Shown here in pieces: positions 10,147-61,256 of a DNA stretch of 64,000 bases (position 1 is the first letter of the stretch; the number at the start of each line of letters is the position of its first letter). Location: NCBI GenBank assembly GCA_902799045.1, contig CADBZH010000010.1, positions 186,001 through 250,000 of the forward strand, in the 5' to 3' direction. The position numbers and the translations under genes are program-made. This DNA is from an uncultured Eubacteriales bacterium (GTDB lineage: Bacteria; Bacillota; Clostridia; Christensenellales; Aristaeellaceae). A model generated the notes under the pieces. That model made no database searches. It saw only the letters and a program-made list of their open reading frames with translations, and was not told the origin of the DNA.

Positions 10147-10209
10147 CGTAGGGGCGGCGATGCGCCGCGCGCCCAAAACGAATCGTTGCGTTCAGGGCGG
10201 GCGGCGCAG
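10147..10209. repeat. GC-rich palindromic repeat, GGGGCGGCG type
   Basis: GTAGGGGCGGCGATGCGCCGC and a downstream GGGCGGGCGGCGCAGA resemble the convergent-gene palindrome at 27799-27873. Its arms are imperfect. Nothing else is seen between 10125 and 10257. Confidence 0.4.
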
Positions 10210-25450: not shown

Positions 25451-26626
25451 TTATGCCGCCAGCAGCTTCATGATGTTGGCACAGAGCGTGGCCAGCGGCG
25501 TGCCCACCACGTAGCCCATCAGCGCCATCAGGATGCCCACGGGCACCAGCGAGCCGGAGTAGGAGCCGGCCAGCACCGGCGCGGAGGCCGTGCCGCCGAT
25601 GTTCGCCAGCGAGGCGACCCCCGCGGTGAACAGGTCCAGCTTCAGCAGCTTGCAGAGCAGCAGCATCAGCGCCGCGTGAATGATAAGCACGATGAACCCG
25701 GTGATGATCCAGGCCGGCGCGTCGCCCAGCTCCAGAAGGCTGGCGCGGGACGCCAGCAGCCCGATCACCGCGTACAGCAGCAGGTTGGACACCTCATTGG
25801 ACCCCGCCACCTTCCCCAGCGGCGTCAGTGCGCACACCAGCGCCACGGCCGTGACGAACAGCACCGTCCAGGTGGCCTTGTCGGAGAAGCCCGTCAGTTC
25901 AAACAGCTTCGCGCCCACGCCCGTGGCGACGGCGCTGACCAGGAAGGCGCAGCCGATGAGCAGCATCAGGCTCTGCAGCGTCACCGGCTTCGCGTTCAGC
26001 TTCGCCTCGTCCGTAAGCCTCACGGAGACCTCGTCCAGGCGGGTGGTATCGGCCCCGGTCCATTTGTTGAAGCGGGGCGCCAGCTGGATGGCCCAGAGCA
26101 GGAACATCACCCACAGGGAATAGTCGATGGAATCGATCACCAGCGCGTAGCCCATGTCCGCCTCGGCGATATCCAGCGCCGCCTGCACGGCCACCATGTT
26201 GCCGCTGCCGCCGATCCACGAGCCGCAAAGCGCGCCCAGGCCCATCCAGGCGTCGCTGCCGATGAAGCGCTTCATGATCAAAAACGCGGCGATGAAGCCG
26301 ATCATGATCGTCAGCGTGGCGGAAAAGAAGCCCAGCAGCATCTTCGGCCCCAGGCGCAGCACCTTGCGGATGTCGCACCGCAGCAGCATCGCGAAGATCA
26401 TCGCGTAGGTCAGGTTGTTCTTCAGCGCGCTGTAGGCGGCCTTCGTCTCCCCCAGGTCCCACACCTTCAGCGTGCACAGCAGCATCGCGATCAGATAGCA
26501 CAGCACCACGGCGGGCACGTACTTGAAGAACTTCGCGAGCGCCCCCTTCGCCGCCTTCTCCAGCGTGACCAGCACGCCGGCCATGAACAGCAGCACGGCC
26601 ACATAGGTAAATCCGTCGGTGATCAT
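25451..26626 (-). CDS. DUF819 family membrane protein (YjcL-like carrier)
   Basis: The 391-residue protein has about ten hydrophobic segments, starting VAVLLFMAGVLVTL. The conserved half-repeats are visible as GSWIGGSGNMVAVQAALDI and ANIGGTASAPVLAGSYSG, as in DUF819/YjcL proteins, which resemble sodium-coupled secondary carriers. The ATG at 26626 lies 7 bases after AGGGAGGG; the upstream in-frame ATG at 26665 has no site. It is the first gene of the 26626-22718 operon and has its own promoter at 26677-26706. The transported compound is unknown. Confidence 0.85.
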   Translation of the reverse strand: MITDGFTYVAVLLFMAGVLVTLEKAAKGALAKFFKYVPAVVLCYLIAMLLCTLKVWDLGETKAAYSALKNNLTYAMIFAMLLRCDIRKVLRLGPKMLLGFFSATLTIMIGFIAAFLIMKRFIGSDAWMGLGALCGSWIGGSGNMVAVQAALDIAEADMGYALVIDSIDYSLWVMFLLWAIQLAPRFNKWTGADTTRLDEVSVRLTDEAKLNAKPVTLQSLMLLIGCAFLVSAVATGVGAKLFELTGFSDKATWTVLFVTAVALVCALTPLGKVAGSNEVSNLLLYAVIGLLASRASLLELGDAPAWIITGFIVLIIHAALMLLLCKLLKLDLFTAGVASLANIGGTASAPVLAGSYSGSLVPVGILMALMGYVVGTPLATLCANIMKLLAA

Positions 26627-26676
26627 CGCCTGTCCCTCCCTCTGCCGGCGAGCGTATCCCGGCATTCCTCGATACC

Positions 26677-26753: not shown

Positions 26754-26915
26754 AGAGTGTGTTTCTAAAGTCGAGGATGTGCAGTTTCGAGGGTATCAGG
26801 CTGCGTTTCAAGGCGATTCTCCGCAGGCTTAGTGGGGCTAAGTCAAGGAAAAGCAACACGGAAATGCAGCCTGAGACGCCGAAAATGCACTTCGGGGATT
26901 TTAGAAACACACTCT
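26754..26915 (+). repeat. MITE-like element family 1, copy 3 (most complete, 162 bp)
   Basis: The ends AGAGTGTGTTTCTAAA and TTTTAGAAACACACTCT are perfect inverted repeats over 16 bases. Inside are GCAGTTTCGAG, a ctgc-paired stem, cgcaggctta and aaggaaaagcaac blocks shared with the other copies. It has TA on the right and CA on the left. Confidence 0.8.
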
Positions 26916-26932
26916 AGAGTGTGTTTCTAAAA
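26916..26932 (+). repeat. Second left end of family 1 abutting copy 3
   Basis: AGAGTGTGTTTCTAAAA begins exactly where copy 3 ends, sharing the TA. The rest of this second element is missing. 26933-26975 shows nothing recognisable. Confidence 0.7.
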
Positions 26933-26975: not shown

Positions 26976-27004
26976 TTGAAAACCGCCGCCGGTTATGGTA
27001 TGCT
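26976..27004 (+). promoter_or_regulatory. Promoter predicting a leaderless mRNA
   Basis: TTGAAA (26976-26981), 17 bases, TATGCT (26999-27004). With the usual 6-base gap to the start point, transcription begins at 27011, the A of the ATG. Confidence 0.6.
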
Positions 27005-27010
27005 GGGCCC

Positions 27011-27781
27011 ATGAAGACAGCAACCACCCGCGACCGGGAGCGCCTGGTCTGCGCCGCGATCTGCCAGGCAAACGGCCTGAAGGCCCGGGAGATCGCGCGG
27101 CAACTGAATCTTGACCGCAGCGTCGTCAACCGCGTCCTGTACGCCTCGCCGCTGCTGAAGGAGCTGTGCTGGCAGGACCGGGACAGCCGGTGGCACGGCA
27201 TCATCCGTCAGGAGCGCCCCCACGCGGGCCTGTTTGAGTTCTGCGGCTACTACAGCCGGGTGGACGAATTCATGGACCTCCCGGAGGGCGAATGGCTGAA
27301 GCGGCTGCTGGAGGGCTGCGAGCGGATCGGGCGCAGCACCAGCGACGCCCGCGGCCTGCTGCACTCCTTCCGCGACTGCCGGACCCAGATGGCGCGGCTG
27401 TTCACGGACCTTATGGACATGGCCGGCGAAGGCTGCCTGAAGTGGGAGATCGCCTTCGAATTCCGCCTGAAGCGCTCGCGCCGGGTGCGCATCTACGCGG
27501 ACGTGCTGGTCATCACGGAGGACAAGGTGTTCTCACTGGAATTCAAGATGAAGGACGCCGTCGAGGGCGAGGACGTCTCCCAGGCGGCGAAGTACGCGCC
27601 GTATCTGGAGATCGTGTTCGGCCCGGACTACGAGGTGCTGCCCGCGCTGGTTCTCACCGGCGCAAAGGAGCTTTTCGATTTCTCCCCCATCGGCGCCAGC
27701 GACTTCCTCCTGCCGGTCTGCTCCGGGGATATGCTGTTCAACGTGTTCGACGAATACCTGGGCTTCCTGAGCGGGAAGTGA
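27011..27781 (+). CDS. Predicted HTH plus PD-(D/E)XK nuclease-like protein
   Basis: The 256-residue protein has an N-terminal helix-turn-helix (about residues 14-45: AAICQANGLKAREIARQLNL followed by DRSVVNRVLY). The C-terminal half (about 135-256) reads as a restriction-endonuclease fold: a Glu in KWEIAFEFRL, then YADVLVI with the catalytic Asp, then VFSLEFKMKD giving the E-x-K pair, then a helix SQAAKYAPYLE. D...E-x-K with a preceding Glu is the PD-(D/E)XK signature. I do not know a named family for this pairing. There is no ribosome site before ATG 27011, which matches the leaderless promoter. It stands alone, next to two repeat ends, which is typical of accessory genes. Confidence 0.6.
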   Translation: MKTATTRDRERLVCAAICQANGLKAREIARQLNLDRSVVNRVLYASPLLKELCWQDRDSRWHGIIRQERPHAGLFEFCGYYSRVDEFMDLPEGEWLKRLLEGCERIGRSTSDARGLLHSFRDCRTQMARLFTDLMDMAGEGCLKWEIAFEFRLKRSRRVRIYADVLVITEDKVFSLEFKMKDAVEGEDVSQAAKYAPYLEIVFGPDYEVLPALVLTGAKELFDFSPIGASDFLLPVCSGDMLFNVFDEYLGFLSGK

Positions 27782-27798: not shown

Positions 27799-27873
27799 AG
27801 GGGCGGCGTTGCGCCGCCTGCCGGGCAGAACGATGCGATTCGTACCCGGACGGGCGCCGCAACGCCGCCCCTG
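27799..27873. repeat. Palindromic repeat between convergent genes
   Basis: Fourteen-base perfect arms (GGGGCGGCGTTGCG at 27800-27813 and its complement at 27858-27871) flank a smaller imperfect stem. It lies between the convergent nuclease-like and GH2 genes and may terminate both. Confidence 0.65.
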
Positions 27874-27895: not shown

Positions 27896-30397
27896 TCAGC
27901 CCTTCACCGGCAGGGAAAGCTCAGCCATGCCGAGGCCCTCGGCGCTCACGCGCAGCGTCGACTCGCCGGCGTCTTCGCCCGGGCGAAGCACGGCCAGCGC
28001 CCGGCCGTGATAGCTGGTGAACTCGCCGCGGGTGTAGTTCTCATCGGTGATGGGGTTGGCCGAGCCGAAGCCCAGCAGCATGGCCGCGCCGGTGACGCTG
28101 GCGGTCAGCGGCACCGCGGCGTCGGGCACCACGCTGCCCGCGGCGTCCACGACCTCCACCCGCACGTAGCCCAGGGTCCCGTCGCCCGGGCGCAGCGCGT
28201 CGCTCTCCGGCACGAGGCGCAGCCCCGCCGCCGGGCCGGTGGTGGCCAGCGCGGCGCGGGAGACCTCCCTGCCGCCGCTGTAGCTCACCGCCTCCAGCGT
28301 GCCGGGGGCGTAGGCGGCGTGGAAAAGGAAGCTCTTCGGCATGTCGTGGGACAGCGACTCTCCGGCGCGCAGCCGGCCCAGGCTCTCGCCGTTCAGCCGG
28401 AGCTCCACCTCCTCGGCCCCGCTGAAGACGAGCACGTCCACGGGCCTGCCCTCGGCGCCGGGCCAGTTCCAGCAGGCGCGAACCCCCGGGAAGCCCCAGG
28501 GCGACAGCGCCTCCTTCTTGCCGAACACCGCCGGATCGTAGCTGTAAAGGCCCGTCTCGGCGCTGCCGAAGACGATGCGCCGATAGACGCCCTGGGGCAG
28601 GATGCCGCCGGTGAGGTCGATATCGGCGTCGTTGGCGGCCCGCCAGGGGAAGGGCGCGCCCACCTCCCACACGCTGGGGATGTGGGTGACGTCCGGCTCA
28701 AAGATCATCGACCGGCCGATGCCCGCCTCGCCGATGTAGTCCCAGGCGGTCCAGGTGAATTCACCGATCACCCAGGGGGTGGCCTCGATCATCGGCCAGT
28801 GCCTGCCCACCTGCACGGGATAGTTTTCGGAGCCGAGGATCACGCGCTCGGGGAACATCTCGTGATCCTGCTCGTACTTGTCCTCCAGGTAGTTGTAGCC
28901 CACCACGTCCAGGCCGTTGGCGAAGGCCTCGGTGACATGCTCCCACAGCAGGTCCTTCCTGCCGCCCAGATCGGCGTTCTGCAGGGTCGCGCCCTCCTCC
29001 CACTTGCGCAGCTGCTCCGTCATCAGCACGTCGTCCAGGCCGTTCCAGAACGAGCAGATGCCGTTGGACACCGGGCGGCTGGGGTCGTGGGCGCGCACGG
29101 CCTCGGCCAGCTTCGTCGCCCGGACGTAGCCGTCGTTCAGGCCCGCGCGCTCGGTGATCTCGTTGCCGATGGACCAGAGGATCACGCTGGGATGGCAGCG
29201 ATCGCGCCGCACGAAGTTCGCCAGGTCCGCCTGCCAGTCGGCGTCGAAGAACTGGTTGTAGTCGCCGGGCTGCTTGCCCATGCCCCAGGCGTCGAAGGCC
29301 TCGTCGAACACGTACATGCCCAGCCGGTCGCAGGCCTCGATCAGCGCCGCGGAGGGCGGGTTGTGGGTGGTGCGGATGGCGTTGAAGCCCACCTCCTTGA
29401 GGATGCGCACCTTCCGCGCCTCGGCGTCGTAGAGGCTCACCGCGCCGATGACGCCGTTGTCGTGGTGCAGGCAGCCGCCCTTCAGCTTCACGATCCTGCC
29501 GTTGATCCGCAGGCCGTGCTTCACGTCCGCCTCCACGGTGCGGATGCCGAACAGCACGTCCTCCTCGTCCGTCGTCGCGCGCTCCACGGGGAAGGCGCGG
29601 GTCCGGTAGGTTCCCGCCTCCGTCACCCGGGCCGACAGCCGGTATAGGCGCGGCGTCTCGGCGCTCCACAGCTTCGGGGCGTCCACGGTCAGCGTCATGT
29701 AGGCCGTGGCCTCGCCCATCGGCGGCACCTGCGCCATCGTCCGGCTCGCGCACACGGCCTCGCCGGTCTCGTCGTCCACCAGCGTGAATTCCACCGCCGC
29801 CAGCCGGTTCTCCGCTAGGTCGTTTCGCACCTGGGCGGATACCTTCAGGTACGCGGTCTCGGCGCGGCCGTCCGCGGCGTATTCGATCCTGTCCGTCCAG
29901 CCGGAGAGCCCGCCGAACGCCACGTGCAGCTTCGGCATGTGGCACAGCGTCACGCCCCGGAACAGCCCCGCGCCGGAATACCAGCGGGAATTGGGCTGCA
30001 TGCTGGGGTTCACGGTGATGACCAGCGTGTTCACCTGGCCGGGATAGACCAGCTGGGTGATGTCCGTCTCGAAGGGCGAATAGCCGTAGTGGTGCAGCGC
30101 CGCCTTCGCGCCGTTGACCTCGATGGTGGCGTTCATCATCGCGCCGTCCAGCCGCAGGGCCACGCGCTCCCCCGCCCACGCCGCGGGGATCTCCAGCACC
30201 TTGATGTAGTGGGCGACGCCCGCGTTGTAATAGCCGCTGGCCTGGCCCGCGGGCGCCTCCGGAGAGACGTCGTTCTCGATCATGTAGTCGTGGGGCAGGT
30301 CCACGGTCCGCTCGTTCAGCTCGCCCCGCAGGCGGCGCGTGTGGTCCGCCAGGCCCGGGCCGAAGCGCCAGCCCCGGTTGATGCTCATCGTTCTCAT
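27896..30397 (-). CDS. Glycoside hydrolase family 2 (beta-galactosidase-like)
   Basis: The 833-residue protein is a retaining beta-glycosidase, most likely a beta-galactosidase. Domain order is a sugar-binding jelly roll (1-165), an Ig-like domain (165-275), the TIM barrel (275-580) and C-terminal Ig-like domains (600-833). The acid/base Glu413 lies in ILWSIGNEITE, and Glu524 in ILGSENYPV is the candidate nucleophile. DLPHDYMIEND and SGYYNAGVAHYIK are typical N-terminal stretches. There is no signal peptide, so the enzyme is cytoplasmic. GGGAGGGG lies 7 bases before ATG 30397; the in-frame ATG at 30481 lies upstream of the promoter. It follows a transporter operon but has its own promoter. 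Confidence 0.92.
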   Translation of the reverse strand: MRTMSINRGWRFGPGLADHTRRLRGELNERTVDLPHDYMIENDVSPEAPAGQASGYYNAGVAHYIKVLEIPAAWAGERVALRLDGAMMNATIEVNGAKAALHHYGYSPFETDITQLVYPGQVNTLVITVNPSMQPNSRWYSGAGLFRGVTLCHMPKLHVAFGGLSGWTDRIEYAADGRAETAYLKVSAQVRNDLAENRLAAVEFTLVDDETGEAVCASRTMAQVPPMGEATAYMTLTVDAPKLWSAETPRLYRLSARVTEAGTYRTRAFPVERATTDEEDVLFGIRTVEADVKHGLRINGRIVKLKGGCLHHDNGVIGAVSLYDAEARKVRILKEVGFNAIRTTHNPPSAALIEACDRLGMYVFDEAFDAWGMGKQPGDYNQFFDADWQADLANFVRRDRCHPSVILWSIGNEITERAGLNDGYVRATKLAEAVRAHDPSRPVSNGICSFWNGLDDVLMTEQLRKWEEGATLQNADLGGRKDLLWEHVTEAFANGLDVVGYNYLEDKYEQDHEMFPERVILGSENYPVQVGRHWPMIEATPWVIGEFTWTAWDYIGEAGIGRSMIFEPDVTHIPSVWEVGAPFPWRAANDADIDLTGGILPQGVYRRIVFGSAETGLYSYDPAVFGKKEALSPWGFPGVRACWNWPGAEGRPVDVLVFSGAEEVELRLNGESLGRLRAGESLSHDMPKSFLFHAAYAPGTLEAVSYSGGREVSRAALATTGPAAGLRLVPESDALRPGDGTLGYVRVEVVDAAGSVVPDAAVPLTASVTGAAMLLGFGSANPITDENYTRGEFTSYHGRALAVLRPGEDAGESTLRVSAEGLGMAELSLPVKG

Positions 30398-30434
30398 ATG
30401 GCTTCCCCTCCCGTATGTACTGTTGCCATCCCCT

Positions 30435-30440
30435 ATTATA
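30435..30440 (-). promoter_or_regulatory. Extended -10 promoter of the GH2 gene
   Basis: TGCTATAAT on the minus strand (TATAAT complement 30435-30440), no good -35. It lies between the upstream terminator and the GH2 start. Confidence 0.6.
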
Positions 30441-30482
30441 GCACACCCGCTCCGCTTTGGCACGAAAAAAAGGCGCTTCACG

Positions 30483-57947: not shown

Positions 57948-60900
57948 TCAGCGGACGTGAAGGACCAGCCGCTTCGACGCGCCCTCCTTTTCCCCGCGCT
58001 TGTCGCAGGCCGCGATCCGAACGGCAAGGTCCTTCCCCTTCAGCGACGGGTCGATCGTGAACAGGTTGTAGAACTCATAGACCGACGTGCCGATGGGGTG
58101 GATGTCGATGCGCTCCATCATCAGCTTCCGCGTCTCCGTGCGAACGGTCTCGCCGTCGTCCAGCTCGTAGCGCAGCGCGCAGACGCTGTCGCCGATCTCG
58201 TAGGTGTTGTCGCGGCGCAGGCGGAAGTCGGCCGGGTCCAGCTGCCAGGGCTTCACCACCCCGGTGAACGCGATGGTATCGCCGGCGTCGACCGTCAGCC
58301 AGTCCATGTCGAAAAGCATCCTGTCCACGGCTTCCTCGTTCAGGTTGAAGCGGTTCTCCGTCGCTTTGTCGTTGACGATGTCCACGCGGCACAGCGCCAG
58401 ATAGTCGCCCTCGGGGAATTCGACGATCCTGCCGCGGCGCTCCTGAGAGCGCCCGCTGCGCACCAGCGCCTCGCCGATGTCATAGTGGTAGGCGTGGAAC
58501 CGCTTCGGATCGCCGACGATCCCGCGCGACTGGAGGTAGGCCAGCTCGGTCTCATAGGACGTGCTGGTGGGGTCCGTCAGATAGACGAACATGTGAATGA
58601 CGAGCCCCTGATACAGGGCGATGTCGTTGGCGCGGTACATCGGCAGCAGGCCCATGTGATAGAGCCAGGTGCCGGTGTAGGGCTCCAGGTATCCCGGCAG
58701 CAGGTCGTTGATGATGCCAAAGTTCATGTCCTGGCACCACTTGGTCATGTTCAGGCGGTGCTCCCACGGGTTGAAGCGCACGATGGCCTGCGTGGCGCGG
58801 CGGCCGATGCGCATCTCCTTCGCCGCCCGGGCCAGGGTCCTGCCGTCGGCGGTCGCCAGCTCCACCTCGATCCGGTAATCGCCCATCTCCAGCATCGGAT
58901 ACGGCGCGCCGTTTTCATCCACGAAGCCGACGCCGTCGTCAAAGATGCGCCCCTGCTCCACGCCGGTGGCGCTGACGATCACGGCCTTGTAGCGGTCGTC
59001 GGAGTACCAGCACTTGATCGTGGCGTCGCGCAGCGATTCCATCGGGCGCCCGACGTCCCTCACCAGCAGCTCCGGGAAGCCGAAATCGATCATGCCCTCG
59101 CGGCCGGGGTCCATCTCCTCCGGATAGGCGGTCACGTCGGGGTGATACGCATACACGTTCCGGTTGTTCTTCCGGTCCTGCCGGGCGTAGCGCAGCACCT
59201 GGCCCTGGCTGCTCAGCAGCCGCACGGTCAGCACAGCGTCGTCCGGCAGCTCCGCCTCGTGCTCGATGGCGCCGTGGACGTTGAAGTGCCGCCCATACTC
59301 CACGAGCGGCCTTTCCCCCGAAGGAAGCGTGATCGTCAGCCTGATGGATTCCCCGTTCATCTTCTCCTCCTGTTCCGCCTTTTCGGCCTGTTCGTGCAAT
59401 CGGATGATGTCGCGCAGCGTTTCGACCTGAAGGATCTGCGCCTCCTCAAAGGAATTTTCCTGCCACCAGAATCGCTCGTGATCCCAGACCAGCCAGGTCC
59501 TCGCGCCGGGCACGGCCCGGAACAGCGCCACGCGCCGGTCGCCCGGGCAGAGGGTGTCCGCCTTCCGGCGCAGGTCCTCCCGGTCCGCCTCATAGGGGCC
59601 CGTCATGATCGTCATGCCGGGAAAGGACACGTCCGTGTGAAACAGCGAGACCGTGATGTTCTCGCGGCTGCACAGGTAGAAGCGGTTGTGATCCTCCGTC
59701 CGCCTCATCAGCCGCTCCAGCGGCTGCGCGTCCAGCGGCTCCGAGTGGGTTTGCGGCGCCTCGTTCCAGCGGGTATAGCCGTTTTCCGCCAGGCTGAGCA
59801 GCATCGATATCGTGCTCTCGTCCCGCAAGGTCATTTCGTCCGGCAGCTCAAACAGCGTCTGGAAGGCATTTTCGATCCGGATGATCTTCCAAAGGGCCTC
59901 CGTGTCGTAGTCCAGCTGCCTCTTCAGCGCGCAGCCCCGCCCCGACGCGAGCACCGCGCCGCGCGCGTCCAGGATCTGAAAGCGAACCTTGCGCGCCGAG
60001 CGGTCCTTCAGCCATTCCTGGCAGTTGCGGAACCGGAGCAGGTCCTCGACCATGCGCTTCTTGCGGTCGGGCAGCGACAGGCTGACCGGCTCGCCCCGCG
60101 CCCAGGAGACCAGGAACGGGCTCATGATGTCCATGCGGTTGTCCATGGCTTCCCGGCCCTGGCCGGAGGCGAAGCGAAACTGCCCCAGCGGGATCGGGAA
60201 GTATTCCCCCTCCGCCTCCAGCAGCAGCTCCCCGCCGTAGAGCATCCTGGCCTCCGGCAGCTCCCTCTGCCTGAGGGCAGGCCTCAGGCTCTCCTCGGCG
60301 TAGTCGTATTCCTTCCAGCCGTTGTCGTAGACGTAGGGCAGGATCGCCATCGCCTTCCTGGCCTCGGACACATAGATCAGCGCGAACGAATTGGCGTGCG
60401 TGTCGCTGTAATACGCCGCCCCCGCGGAAAAGACGCTGCCGCCGCCGCTCTGCTTCATCAGCCGCGGCTTGCCCGCGCTCTCGGTGTGGCCGCACAGAAG
60501 CAGGTCCGCGCAGGAGCCCAGCAGCGCCAGCGTCGCCGGCCTTCCGTCATAGGAGCTGGTCTCGTTGGGGTGCAGGAACCGGCTCGAGTGGTGGAACAGG
60601 GCCACCGTGTACCAGGTGTCGTCCGTCGGGGGCAGGATGCCGTTTTGGATCAGGGTCTTGATCTGCGGCTGCCCCAGCCACATCTTGTCCTCGGAAAGGC
60701 CGGAGCCCAGCAGCAGCGACGTGTTGAAGCTCGCCAGCCGGAGCTTCTTTCCGGACCGGGAGAGGATATCCTTCCAGCCCACGCTGTAGCTGTATTCCTC
60801 CCTGTCGCCCAGCGGGTAGGCGTAGGGCTCCGCGCCCATCTCGCTGCAAAACCGGTTGTAGGCGTAGAGGGGCGGCTCGGAGATCATCAGGTTTTCATAT

Positions 60901-61256
60901 TGATACAGCGCGTCGATCCGCTGGATCATGCCGTTGTCCAGCCGCTCCCGGCGGCATTTCCGGGACAGGTCGACGTCGTGGTTGCCCACACAAAAGGAGA
61001 TGTCCTTTCCGGACAACCCCGTGATGCGCAGCAGCTTTTTGAACCAGTCCTTCGCCTCGTCAAACTCGCTTTTCTTCCCGTGCCAGGCAATATCGCCCGT
61101 CACGACGATGTGCTCCGGCATGAAATCCCCGTCCAGCCCCGCGATGACCTCCAGCAGGCCGTTCAGGATCTCATCGTGCTTTTCAAATGAATCGCGTATC
61201 CCATATTGAGGATCATTCCTTCCAAAATGGATATCGGACAGATGCAGAATGATCAT
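57948..61256 (-). CDS. Large metallophosphoesterase fusion protein of unknown function
   Basis: A 1102-residue protein. Residues 1-275 form a calcineurin-like metallophosphoesterase with its usual motifs in order: HLSDIHFG (Asp8, His10), VVTGDIAW (Asp55), VGNHDVD (Asn92, His93), ALFHHSS (His222/223) and LLCGHTES (His257), where the normal G-H-x-H ends in Glu instead of His. Residues about 280-1102 have no motif I recognise. They look beta-rich with repeated strands, including SVSLSLPDRKKRMVEDLLRF and several RFNPWEHR or YELDDGETV-like stretches, plus a charged coil near 645. GGAGG lies 6 bases before ATG. It is transcribed alone from a strong promoter and diverges from the P-type ATPase gene. 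Confidence 0.75.
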   Translation of the reverse strand: MIILHLSDIHFGRNDPQYGIRDSFEKHDEILNGLLEVIAGLDGDFMPEHIVVTGDIAWHGKKSEFDEAKDWFKKLLRITGLSGKDISFCVGNHDVDLSRKCRRERLDNGMIQRIDALYQYENLMISEPPLYAYNRFCSEMGAEPYAYPLGDREEYSYSVGWKDILSRSGKKLRLASFNTSLLLGSGLSEDKMWLGQPQIKTLIQNGILPPTDDTWYTVALFHHSSRFLHPNETSSYDGRPATLALLGSCADLLLCGHTESAGKPRLMKQSGGGSVFSAGAAYYSDTHANSFALIYVSEARKAMAILPYVYDNGWKEYDYAEESLRPALRQRELPEARMLYGGELLLEAEGEYFPIPLGQFRFASGQGREAMDNRMDIMSPFLVSWARGEPVSLSLPDRKKRMVEDLLRFRNCQEWLKDRSARKVRFQILDARGAVLASGRGCALKRQLDYDTEALWKIIRIENAFQTLFELPDEMTLRDESTISMLLSLAENGYTRWNEAPQTHSEPLDAQPLERLMRRTEDHNRFYLCSRENITVSLFHTDVSFPGMTIMTGPYEADREDLRRKADTLCPGDRRVALFRAVPGARTWLVWDHERFWWQENSFEEAQILQVETLRDIIRLHEQAEKAEQEEKMNGESIRLTITLPSGERPLVEYGRHFNVHGAIEHEAELPDDAVLTVRLLSSQGQVLRYARQDRKNNRNVYAYHPDVTAYPEEMDPGREGMIDFGFPELLVRDVGRPMESLRDATIKCWYSDDRYKAVIVSATGVEQGRIFDDGVGFVDENGAPYPMLEMGDYRIEVELATADGRTLARAAKEMRIGRRATQAIVRFNPWEHRLNMTKWCQDMNFGIINDLLPGYLEPYTGTWLYHMGLLPMYRANDIALYQGLVIHMFVYLTDPTSTSYETELAYLQSRGIVGDPKRFHAYHYDIGEALVRSGRSQERRGRIVEFPEGDYLALCRVDIVNDKATENRFNLNEEAVDRMLFDMDWLTVDAGDTIAFTGVVKPWQLDPADFRLRRDNTYEIGDSVCALRYELDDGETVRTETRKLMMERIDIHPIGTSVYEFYNLFTIDPSLKGKDLAVRIAACDKRGEKEGASKRLVLHVR

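Follow-up and report, generated by a model that had tools for sequence, protein, structure and literature searches.

The gene at positions 27011-27781 of the window, by which we mean the whole 64,000-nucleotide stretch of gut-bacterial DNA analysed here, raises a simple question: what does a protein do that joins an N-terminal helix-turn-helix to a nuclease-like core in one short chain? The features on which our answer draws are collected in Table 1.

Table 1. Features of the gene and its surroundings, in window coordinates
Feature	Position	Strand	Basis
DUF819 membrane-protein gene, divergent from the nuclease gene	25451-26665	-	Pfam
MITE-like repeat, upstream of and outside the gene	26754-26931		terminal repeats and BLAST copies in the genome
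Promoter-like TTGAAA-17-TATGCT, 6 bases before the ATG	26976-27004	+	same arrangement in L008 and L009, not general
Gene of the two-module protein, 256 aa	27011-27781	+	translation, homologues, dN/dS, residue conservation
Za-like winged helix-turn-helix, residues 7-66	27029-27208	+	PDB profile search; module found separately on SF1 helicases
N40-R-V-L43-Y44, at the place of ADAR1 N173..Y177	27128-27142	+	N40 100/122, L43 117/122, Y44 79/122
W61, at the place of ADAR1 W195	27191-27193	+	122/122
Nuclease module, residues 68-256, collinear with the SLFN-g3 helicase N-terminus	27212-27778	+	alignment A5; PDC-S41 E 2.1e-7
E150, candidate catalytic acid	27458-27460	+	122/122
D164, D of PD-(D/E)XK	27500-27502	+	122/122
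E177-F-K179-M-K181, E-x-K motif and following Lys	27539-27553	+	E177, K179 and K181 each 122/122
Q191-xxx-Y195, QxxxY motif	27581-27595	+	both 122/122
G+C-rich palindrome, downstream	27799-27872		third related copy at 10151-10169
Glycoside hydrolase family 2 gene, convergent with the nuclease gene	27896-30481	-	Pfam

Location, distribution and surroundings of the gene

The open reading frame lies on the forward strand and translates into 256 amino acids followed by a stop codon; the motifs KWEIAFEF, YADVLVI and SLEFKMK, quoted in an earlier note on this DNA, are all present in the translation. Since homologues occur in the window's family and are under purifying selection, we regard the frame as a gene and not as a chance open reading frame. 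The homologue set comprised 122 distinct sequences from 147 loci, with the window's own protein left out. Median dN/dS was 0.24 (Nei-Gojobori; range 0.03-0.51) over 1174 pairs, all taken outside the g4 set (38 sequences of genus g4 and one of genus g50) and with a synonymous difference of 0.1-0.6. None of the 122 homologues contains a premature stop; the nine stops seen in the alignments are natural ones, placed a single residue short of the query's end. Its own genome, assembled into 54 contigs totalling 2.9 Mb, has a single copy of the gene. Two copies on different contigs were seen in the MAGs RUG109 (L045 and L051) and RUG14036 (L071 and L077), where mixing in the assembly is possible.

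Two start codons are candidates, the ATG at 27011 and an upstream GTG at 26921. We favour the ATG, because the promoter-like sequence ends 6 bases 5' of it and this arrangement recurs in L008 and L009. The expected transcription start would lie at or near the ATG (window 26976-27013), pointing to a possible leaderless mRNA, and likewise in L008 and L009. A conserved leaderless promoter was rejected: any such match was found in 13 of the 147 scanned sequences, the window included, and the arrangement itself in the window and in L008 and L009, which are L034 and L037 again.

The description of the gene as isolated is borne out, as it is divergent from the DUF819 gene and convergent with the glycoside hydrolase gene. 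It had also been placed between two repeat ends and a palindrome. The repeats and the palindrome exist, but the bracketing does not: the repeat ends (26754-26769 and 26900-26931) both lie on the upstream side of the gene and so do not enclose it, and the palindrome, possibly a terminator or a dispersed palindromic repeat, lies downstream. BLAST with the MITE-like element gave 84 matches in the genome. The 41 strongest lie at distinct places, and many weaker matches are those copies found again on the other strand. Its terminal repeat, AGAGTGTGTTTCTAAA, has 8 matches in the window at two mismatches or fewer. The suggestion of a mobile or defence gene, drawn from these nearby repeats, is not upheld, as the repeats are dispersed MITE-like copies and no relative of the gene was found in phage records or in two viral-contig scans. 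Cargo of a repeat-bounded mobile element is likewise rejected, given the dispersed nature of the repeat family and the position of both ends. A plasmid search gave one match, a 42-residue piece of a transposase (E 0.2), and on this and the phage and viral-contig searches we reject a phage or plasmid gene.

A search at E 0.001 matched 62 of the 308 genomes of the window's family, with one match per genome; in one of the 62 (G170) the match is limited to the N-terminal domain and lies on a 1108-aa frame. The gene is present in 15 of the 28 genomes of the window's genus, its own included, and in 38 of at least 43 genomes of genus g4. The order draw gave matches in 12 of 396 genomes (2 of the 12 outside the family), the class draw in 4 of 391 and the phylum draw in 5 of 299. 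In the class and phylum draws, the full-length match was confined to the window's own genome, all others being single-module matches. A scan of genome contigs found 151 relatives, and the best 80 of the 151 lie in records titled as Clostridia or its subgroups, many of them naming the rumen or gut.

The survey of homologue neighbourhoods that the earlier note called for was run on 80 loci and revealed neither a recurrent partner gene nor a defence island. The gene finder recovered the family's open reading frame in 67 of these loci. The most widespread neighbour cluster occurs in 16 loci at scattered distances and the next in 7; two small clusters hold a fixed place, in 4 loci each. With no cluster in more than 16 of the 80 loci, and that one at scattered distances, a conserved operon or defence island is rejected. 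No cognate methyltransferase, as sought for a restriction-modification system, was found: the window neighbours are the DUF819 and glycoside hydrolase genes, and none is recurrent in the 80 loci. In three genomes of the window's genus (G230, G235 and G246), the gene is still surrounded by rearranged parts of the window's region; in the surroundings shared by these and the window's genome, part of which was searched with profiles, no recombinase was recognised by eye. In three genomes of the genus that lack a match to the gene, the DUF819 gene stands in other company. Among 20 further loci (18 of genus g4 and 2 of family f10), the gene holds a fixed place in 7, among apparent translation and house-keeping genes.

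Elsewhere in the window, a 1102-aa protein (57948-61256, reverse strand) has an N-terminal calcineurin-like phosphoesterase domain (Pfam Metallophos, E 2e-9). Its first 182 residues resemble the PADLOC candidate PDC-S60 (E 1.2e-11), a resemblance that makes it a possible defence gene.

The nuclease module and its helicase-bearing relatives

The proposed pairing of a helix-turn-helix with a PD-(D/E)XK-like nuclease holds at the sequence level. W145, E150, R160, D164, E177, K179, K181, Q191 and Y195 are each found in 122 of 122 homologues, and E146 in 118. Loss of the Asp and the E-x-K among homologues had been named beforehand as the observation that would speak against a nuclease; both are kept throughout. 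The conserved D and E-x-K of PD-(D/E)XK are joined by QxxxY, which we take to be the motif of the RecB-type, or RecB-like, group of these enzymes. The order of the motifs fits a PD-(D/E)XK core, and the nuclease is apparently intact rather than degenerate. Because the Asp and the E-x-K are kept in all homologues, a regulator with a dead nuclease, the other role raised for this gene, is disfavoured, and on the same residues we reject a dead nuclease.

The suspicion that no named family has just this pairing also stands, as no Pfam or NCBIfam model reaches its cut-off on the 256-aa sequence. The libraries gave one notable match, to the PADLOC candidate PDC-S41 (residues 138-201, E 2.1e-7), and 29 of 29 family members match this model too. 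Among nuclease models, Pfam NERD alone appears, weakly and in 2 of 10 sequences (best E 0.0025). No solved relative of the module was found in the PDB by sequence; the one match is a 26-residue piece of a flap endonuclease (E 0.63).

Two matches in the phylum search cover profile positions 62-212 and 71-212 only. They form the N-terminus of proteins of 609 and 619 residues, the remainder of which is Pfam SLFN-g3_helicase (E 4.2e-66 and 1.4e-60), and these proteins match PDC-S41 with E 1.7e-133 and 2.4e-105. In alignment A5, the nuclease module is collinear end to end with both, from the D122-C123 segment through F-E150, D164 and E177-x-K179 to QxxxY. No SLFN-g3 helicase domain is present in the window protein, which ends after the nuclease and has no Pfam helicase match.

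A Za-like domain at the N-terminus

The class and phylum searches gave five other single-module matches, to the winged helix-turn-helix (wHTH; about profile positions 2-63). Four of them lie at the beginning of frames roughly 1100 codons long, of which L123 has an internal stop codon; the frame of the fifth (L122) is shortened by a masked stretch. AAA_11, AAA_12 and a C-terminal MTES_1575 domain scored above cut-off in all four helicases scanned, and the G170 frame is among the helicases found. The nearest PADLOC models of these wHTH-bearing helicases are MkoC, MkoA, PDC-S37 and Hhe. One SF1 helicase with the N-terminal wHTH (L131:3089-9553) is followed, some 400 bases further on, by a restriction-modification gene of MmeI type.

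Za domains are the Z-DNA and Z-RNA readers of animals and some viruses. A PDB search with the window protein alone gave four matches, three of them Za (E 0.0062, 0.2 and 0.23), and the family profile gave eight, all Za (E 0.11-1.4). With a domain profile of 15 sequences, helicases included, 65 matches were returned; ranks 1-18 are all Za (E 2.4e-6 to 0.023), and the first non-Za match follows at E 0.033. Some of the 18 are Za chains under other titles: the output gives 4hob and 2l4m as uncharacterised, and others by protein names such as eIF-2 kinase or E3. The alignments span mainly the three helices, with one of the 18 chains (7c0i) reaching the Trp of the wing. Neither this likeness nor the separate occurrence of the two modules in two helicase families had been noticed in the earlier note.

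Rank alone does not show Z-binding, since the N-domain of L139, a sigma-54 activator by Pfam, also ranks Za first in the PDB (E 0.0023). Bacterial sigma-54 regulators are described, in a passage of PMC11298590, as Za-like domains that neither bind nor induce the Z-form and that have Ser and Asn at the N173 and Y177 positions. Pfam z-alpha was rejected as a specific detector: at E 0.01 it matches 14 of 249 phylum genomes, 7 above cut-off, and Pfam identified two of these matches, one as a sigma-54 activator and the other as a DsrD-like protein. It matches none of 29 family members at E 0.1, and one helicase relative reaches 18.9 bits against its cut-off of 21. The generic models HTH_24 and HTH_23 match more family members than z-alpha does.

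We therefore compared individual residues, numbered after ADAR1 N173, Y177 and W195 as in excerpts of PMC11293857 and PMC11298590; an N, L, Y, W tetrad is described as characteristic of Za in the former. The tetrad is present in the window protein (N40, L43, Y44 and W61) and in 77 of the 122 homologues, and is absent from the other 45, most of which belong to the g4 set. Among the helicases, L132 and L138 have it in full, and L131, L134 and L137 are each one residue short. It occurs in none of 40 background HTH domains, made up of 27 other HTH matches of the class search (27 of 45 places had loci among the matches listed) and 13 Pfam z-alpha matches of the phylum search (13 of 14 loci could be aligned). 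Because a single one of the 40 alignments covers the full set of four columns, this control rests mainly on N, which is present in 3 of the 40. A looser pattern, N..[LIMV]Y followed after 13-21 residues by W, was likewise found in none of the open frames around the same 40 matches; it occurs in 16 of 968 unrelated neighbour proteins and is thus uncommon but not unique.

The g4 set departs from the tetrad. N, Y and W are all kept in 2 of its 39 sequences, and N and/or Y are lost in 37, with S and/or V or F instead. Canonical Z-recognition therefore cannot be essential in the g4 set, where the nuclease is intact. For Za, a portion of PMC11293857 reports that Y to F lowers specific binding and that Y to I abolishes it. 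Z-binding, if it matters at all, would do so in part of the family. The wing prolines (ADAR1 P192 and P193) have no counterpart, with Pro at residue 58 or 59 in 0 of 122 homologues; the second ZBP1 domain likewise lacks them, as stated in an excerpt of PMC11293857. A link of G+C content to the tetrad was rejected, as the distributions overlap (medians 0.59 and 0.56).

The C-terminal segment of PADLOC ZorC1 resembles the same wHTH, which suggests that ZorC may carry a Za-like domain. At E 0.1, 27 of the 29 family members match the segment (lowest E 3.4e-5; window protein 0.0074), and the helicase L137 (L137:122-325) matches it at E 2.1e-4. We do not assign the gene to Zorya: the match is confined to model positions 627-668, and no ZorA, ZorB or ZorD partner was recognised by eye in the window's gene list.

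Proposed function and relation to known systems

We favour, with somewhat better than even confidence, a single-chain and probably active metal-dependent nuclease, in which the Za-like wHTH (residues 7-66) targets the PD-(D/E)XK-type module (residues 68-256), encoded by a gene that is resident in the chromosome and acts with no fixed partner gene. Its observed basis is the domain make-up, the conservation of the active site, the purifying selection and the lack of a recurrent neighbour. From these we infer a fold, a catalytic activity, a kind of nucleic acid and a biological role. The Za-like domain would dock the protein on a structural feature of a nucleic acid, such as a junction, an end, or a duplex that is strongly twisted or not in B-form. 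Docking by the wHTH would replace the targeting that the helicase provides in the relatives, and the nuclease of the docked protein would then cut or trim the nucleic acid. Such an enzyme could act in genome maintenance or in cell-autonomous defence.

How literally the likeness to Za should be taken divides the readings of the N-terminal domain. A true Z-form-binding domain and an active PD-(D/E)XK nuclease in one polypeptide would recognise and cut left-handed DNA or RNA, one source of which would be foreign DNA that is over-twisted, replicating rapidly or being transcribed; we consider this unlikely, and Z-form recognition is no more likely than the binding of ordinary duplex, of junctions or of ends. 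Nearly an even chance goes to an ordinary wHTH that binds B-form DNA or simply anchors the protein, its likeness to Za reflecting a common fold, in an orphan repair or restriction-like DNase. This fits the sigma-54 domain that also ranks Za first, although its class reportedly does not bind the Z-form (in the cited passage of PMC11298590), as well as the wing prolines missing in 122 of 122 homologues, the 2 of 39 g4-set sequences that keep N, Y and W, and the better showing of HTH_24 and HTH_23 over z-alpha (0 of 29 at E 0.1). It sits less well with a tetrad found in 77 of 122 homologues, and W61 in all of them, against none of 40 background HTH domains.

Either reading of the wHTH can be combined with defence. 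That the protein is an anti-phage or anti-plasmid effector, a single-gene defence attacking incoming DNA or aborting infection, is possible but falls clearly short of an even chance. The nuclease module belongs to the defence candidate PDC-S41, the helicases that share the wHTH are nearest to MkoC, MkoA, PDC-S37 and Hhe, helicase L131 precedes a restriction-modification gene of MmeI type, and the gene is distributed patchily over the window's genus (15 of 28 genomes); yet it has no recurrent neighbour in 80 loci, is near-universal in genus g4 (38 of at least 43), holds a fixed place among seemingly house-keeping genes in 7 of 20 loci, and has no relative in phage records or viral contigs. Defence is plausible by analogy with the relatives, but genome maintenance would account just as well for the near-universality in g4 and for a gene that has no recurrent neighbour. 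Very improbable, in our view, are two further readings: a transcription regulator whose nuclease fold is dead, and mobile-element cargo bounded by the repeats. The N-terminal HTH and the nearby repeats would suit them, but the active-site residues are kept in 122 of 122 homologues, both repeat ends of a dispersed MITE-like family lie on one side, and parts of the same surroundings are shared by four genus members, counting the window's genome.

Since most members combine the N-L-Y-W tetrad with an intact nuclease, bacterial reading of left-handed nucleic acid becomes directly testable. If bacteria do sense such nucleic acid, this would bear on whether the sensing predates animal immunity. Were the domain of the nuclease a true Z-binder, the SF1 helicases with the same domain would form part of a wider bacterial set that handles Z-nucleic acid, and animal and viral Za domains may descend from it. 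If the domain does not bind the Z-form, the favoured reading still leaves an unnamed nuclease family in which a wHTH replaces the helicase of its relatives and which is near-universal in one gut Clostridia genus. Among the matches listed in our literature searches, none was seen to describe a Za-like domain of bacteria that has the whole tetrad, or its fusion to a nuclease, an absence that is weak evidence; we found no paper on PDC-S41, and none with DUF2075 or Zalpha/Zalpha domain among the matches listed.

Compared with known systems, the nuclease module is closest to the SLFN-g3 helicases (Pfam PF09848; PADLOC PDC-S41), with which it shares D122, F149-E150, R160, D164-V165, L176-E177, K179, K181, Q191 and Y195 at 24-28% identity; unlike them, the window protein has no helicase domain and bears an N-terminal Za-like wHTH. 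The wHTH is held in common with the SF1 helicases (AAA_11/AAA_12) at 28-40% identity (alignment A4), but those are proteins of about 1100 residues with a helicase motor and another nuclease domain (MTES_1575), neither of which the window protein has. The likeness to ZorC of type I Zorya is restricted to the C-terminal segment 627-668 of 687, the rest of ZorC being unmatched. With the Za domains of ADAR1, ZBP1, PKZ and viral proteins, the N-terminal domain shares profile similarity (best E 2.4e-6) and the tetrad in 77 of 122 homologues; it differs in being bacterial, fused to a nuclease and without wing prolines, and its Z-binding is putative. The published bacterial Za-like domains, those of sigma-54 regulators, a subset of arsR (with R in place of N, in an excerpt of PMC11293857) and DsrD, are also wHTH domains resembling Za. 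In contrast to the sigma-54 and arsR domains, most members of the present family keep all four residues and have a nuclease attached.
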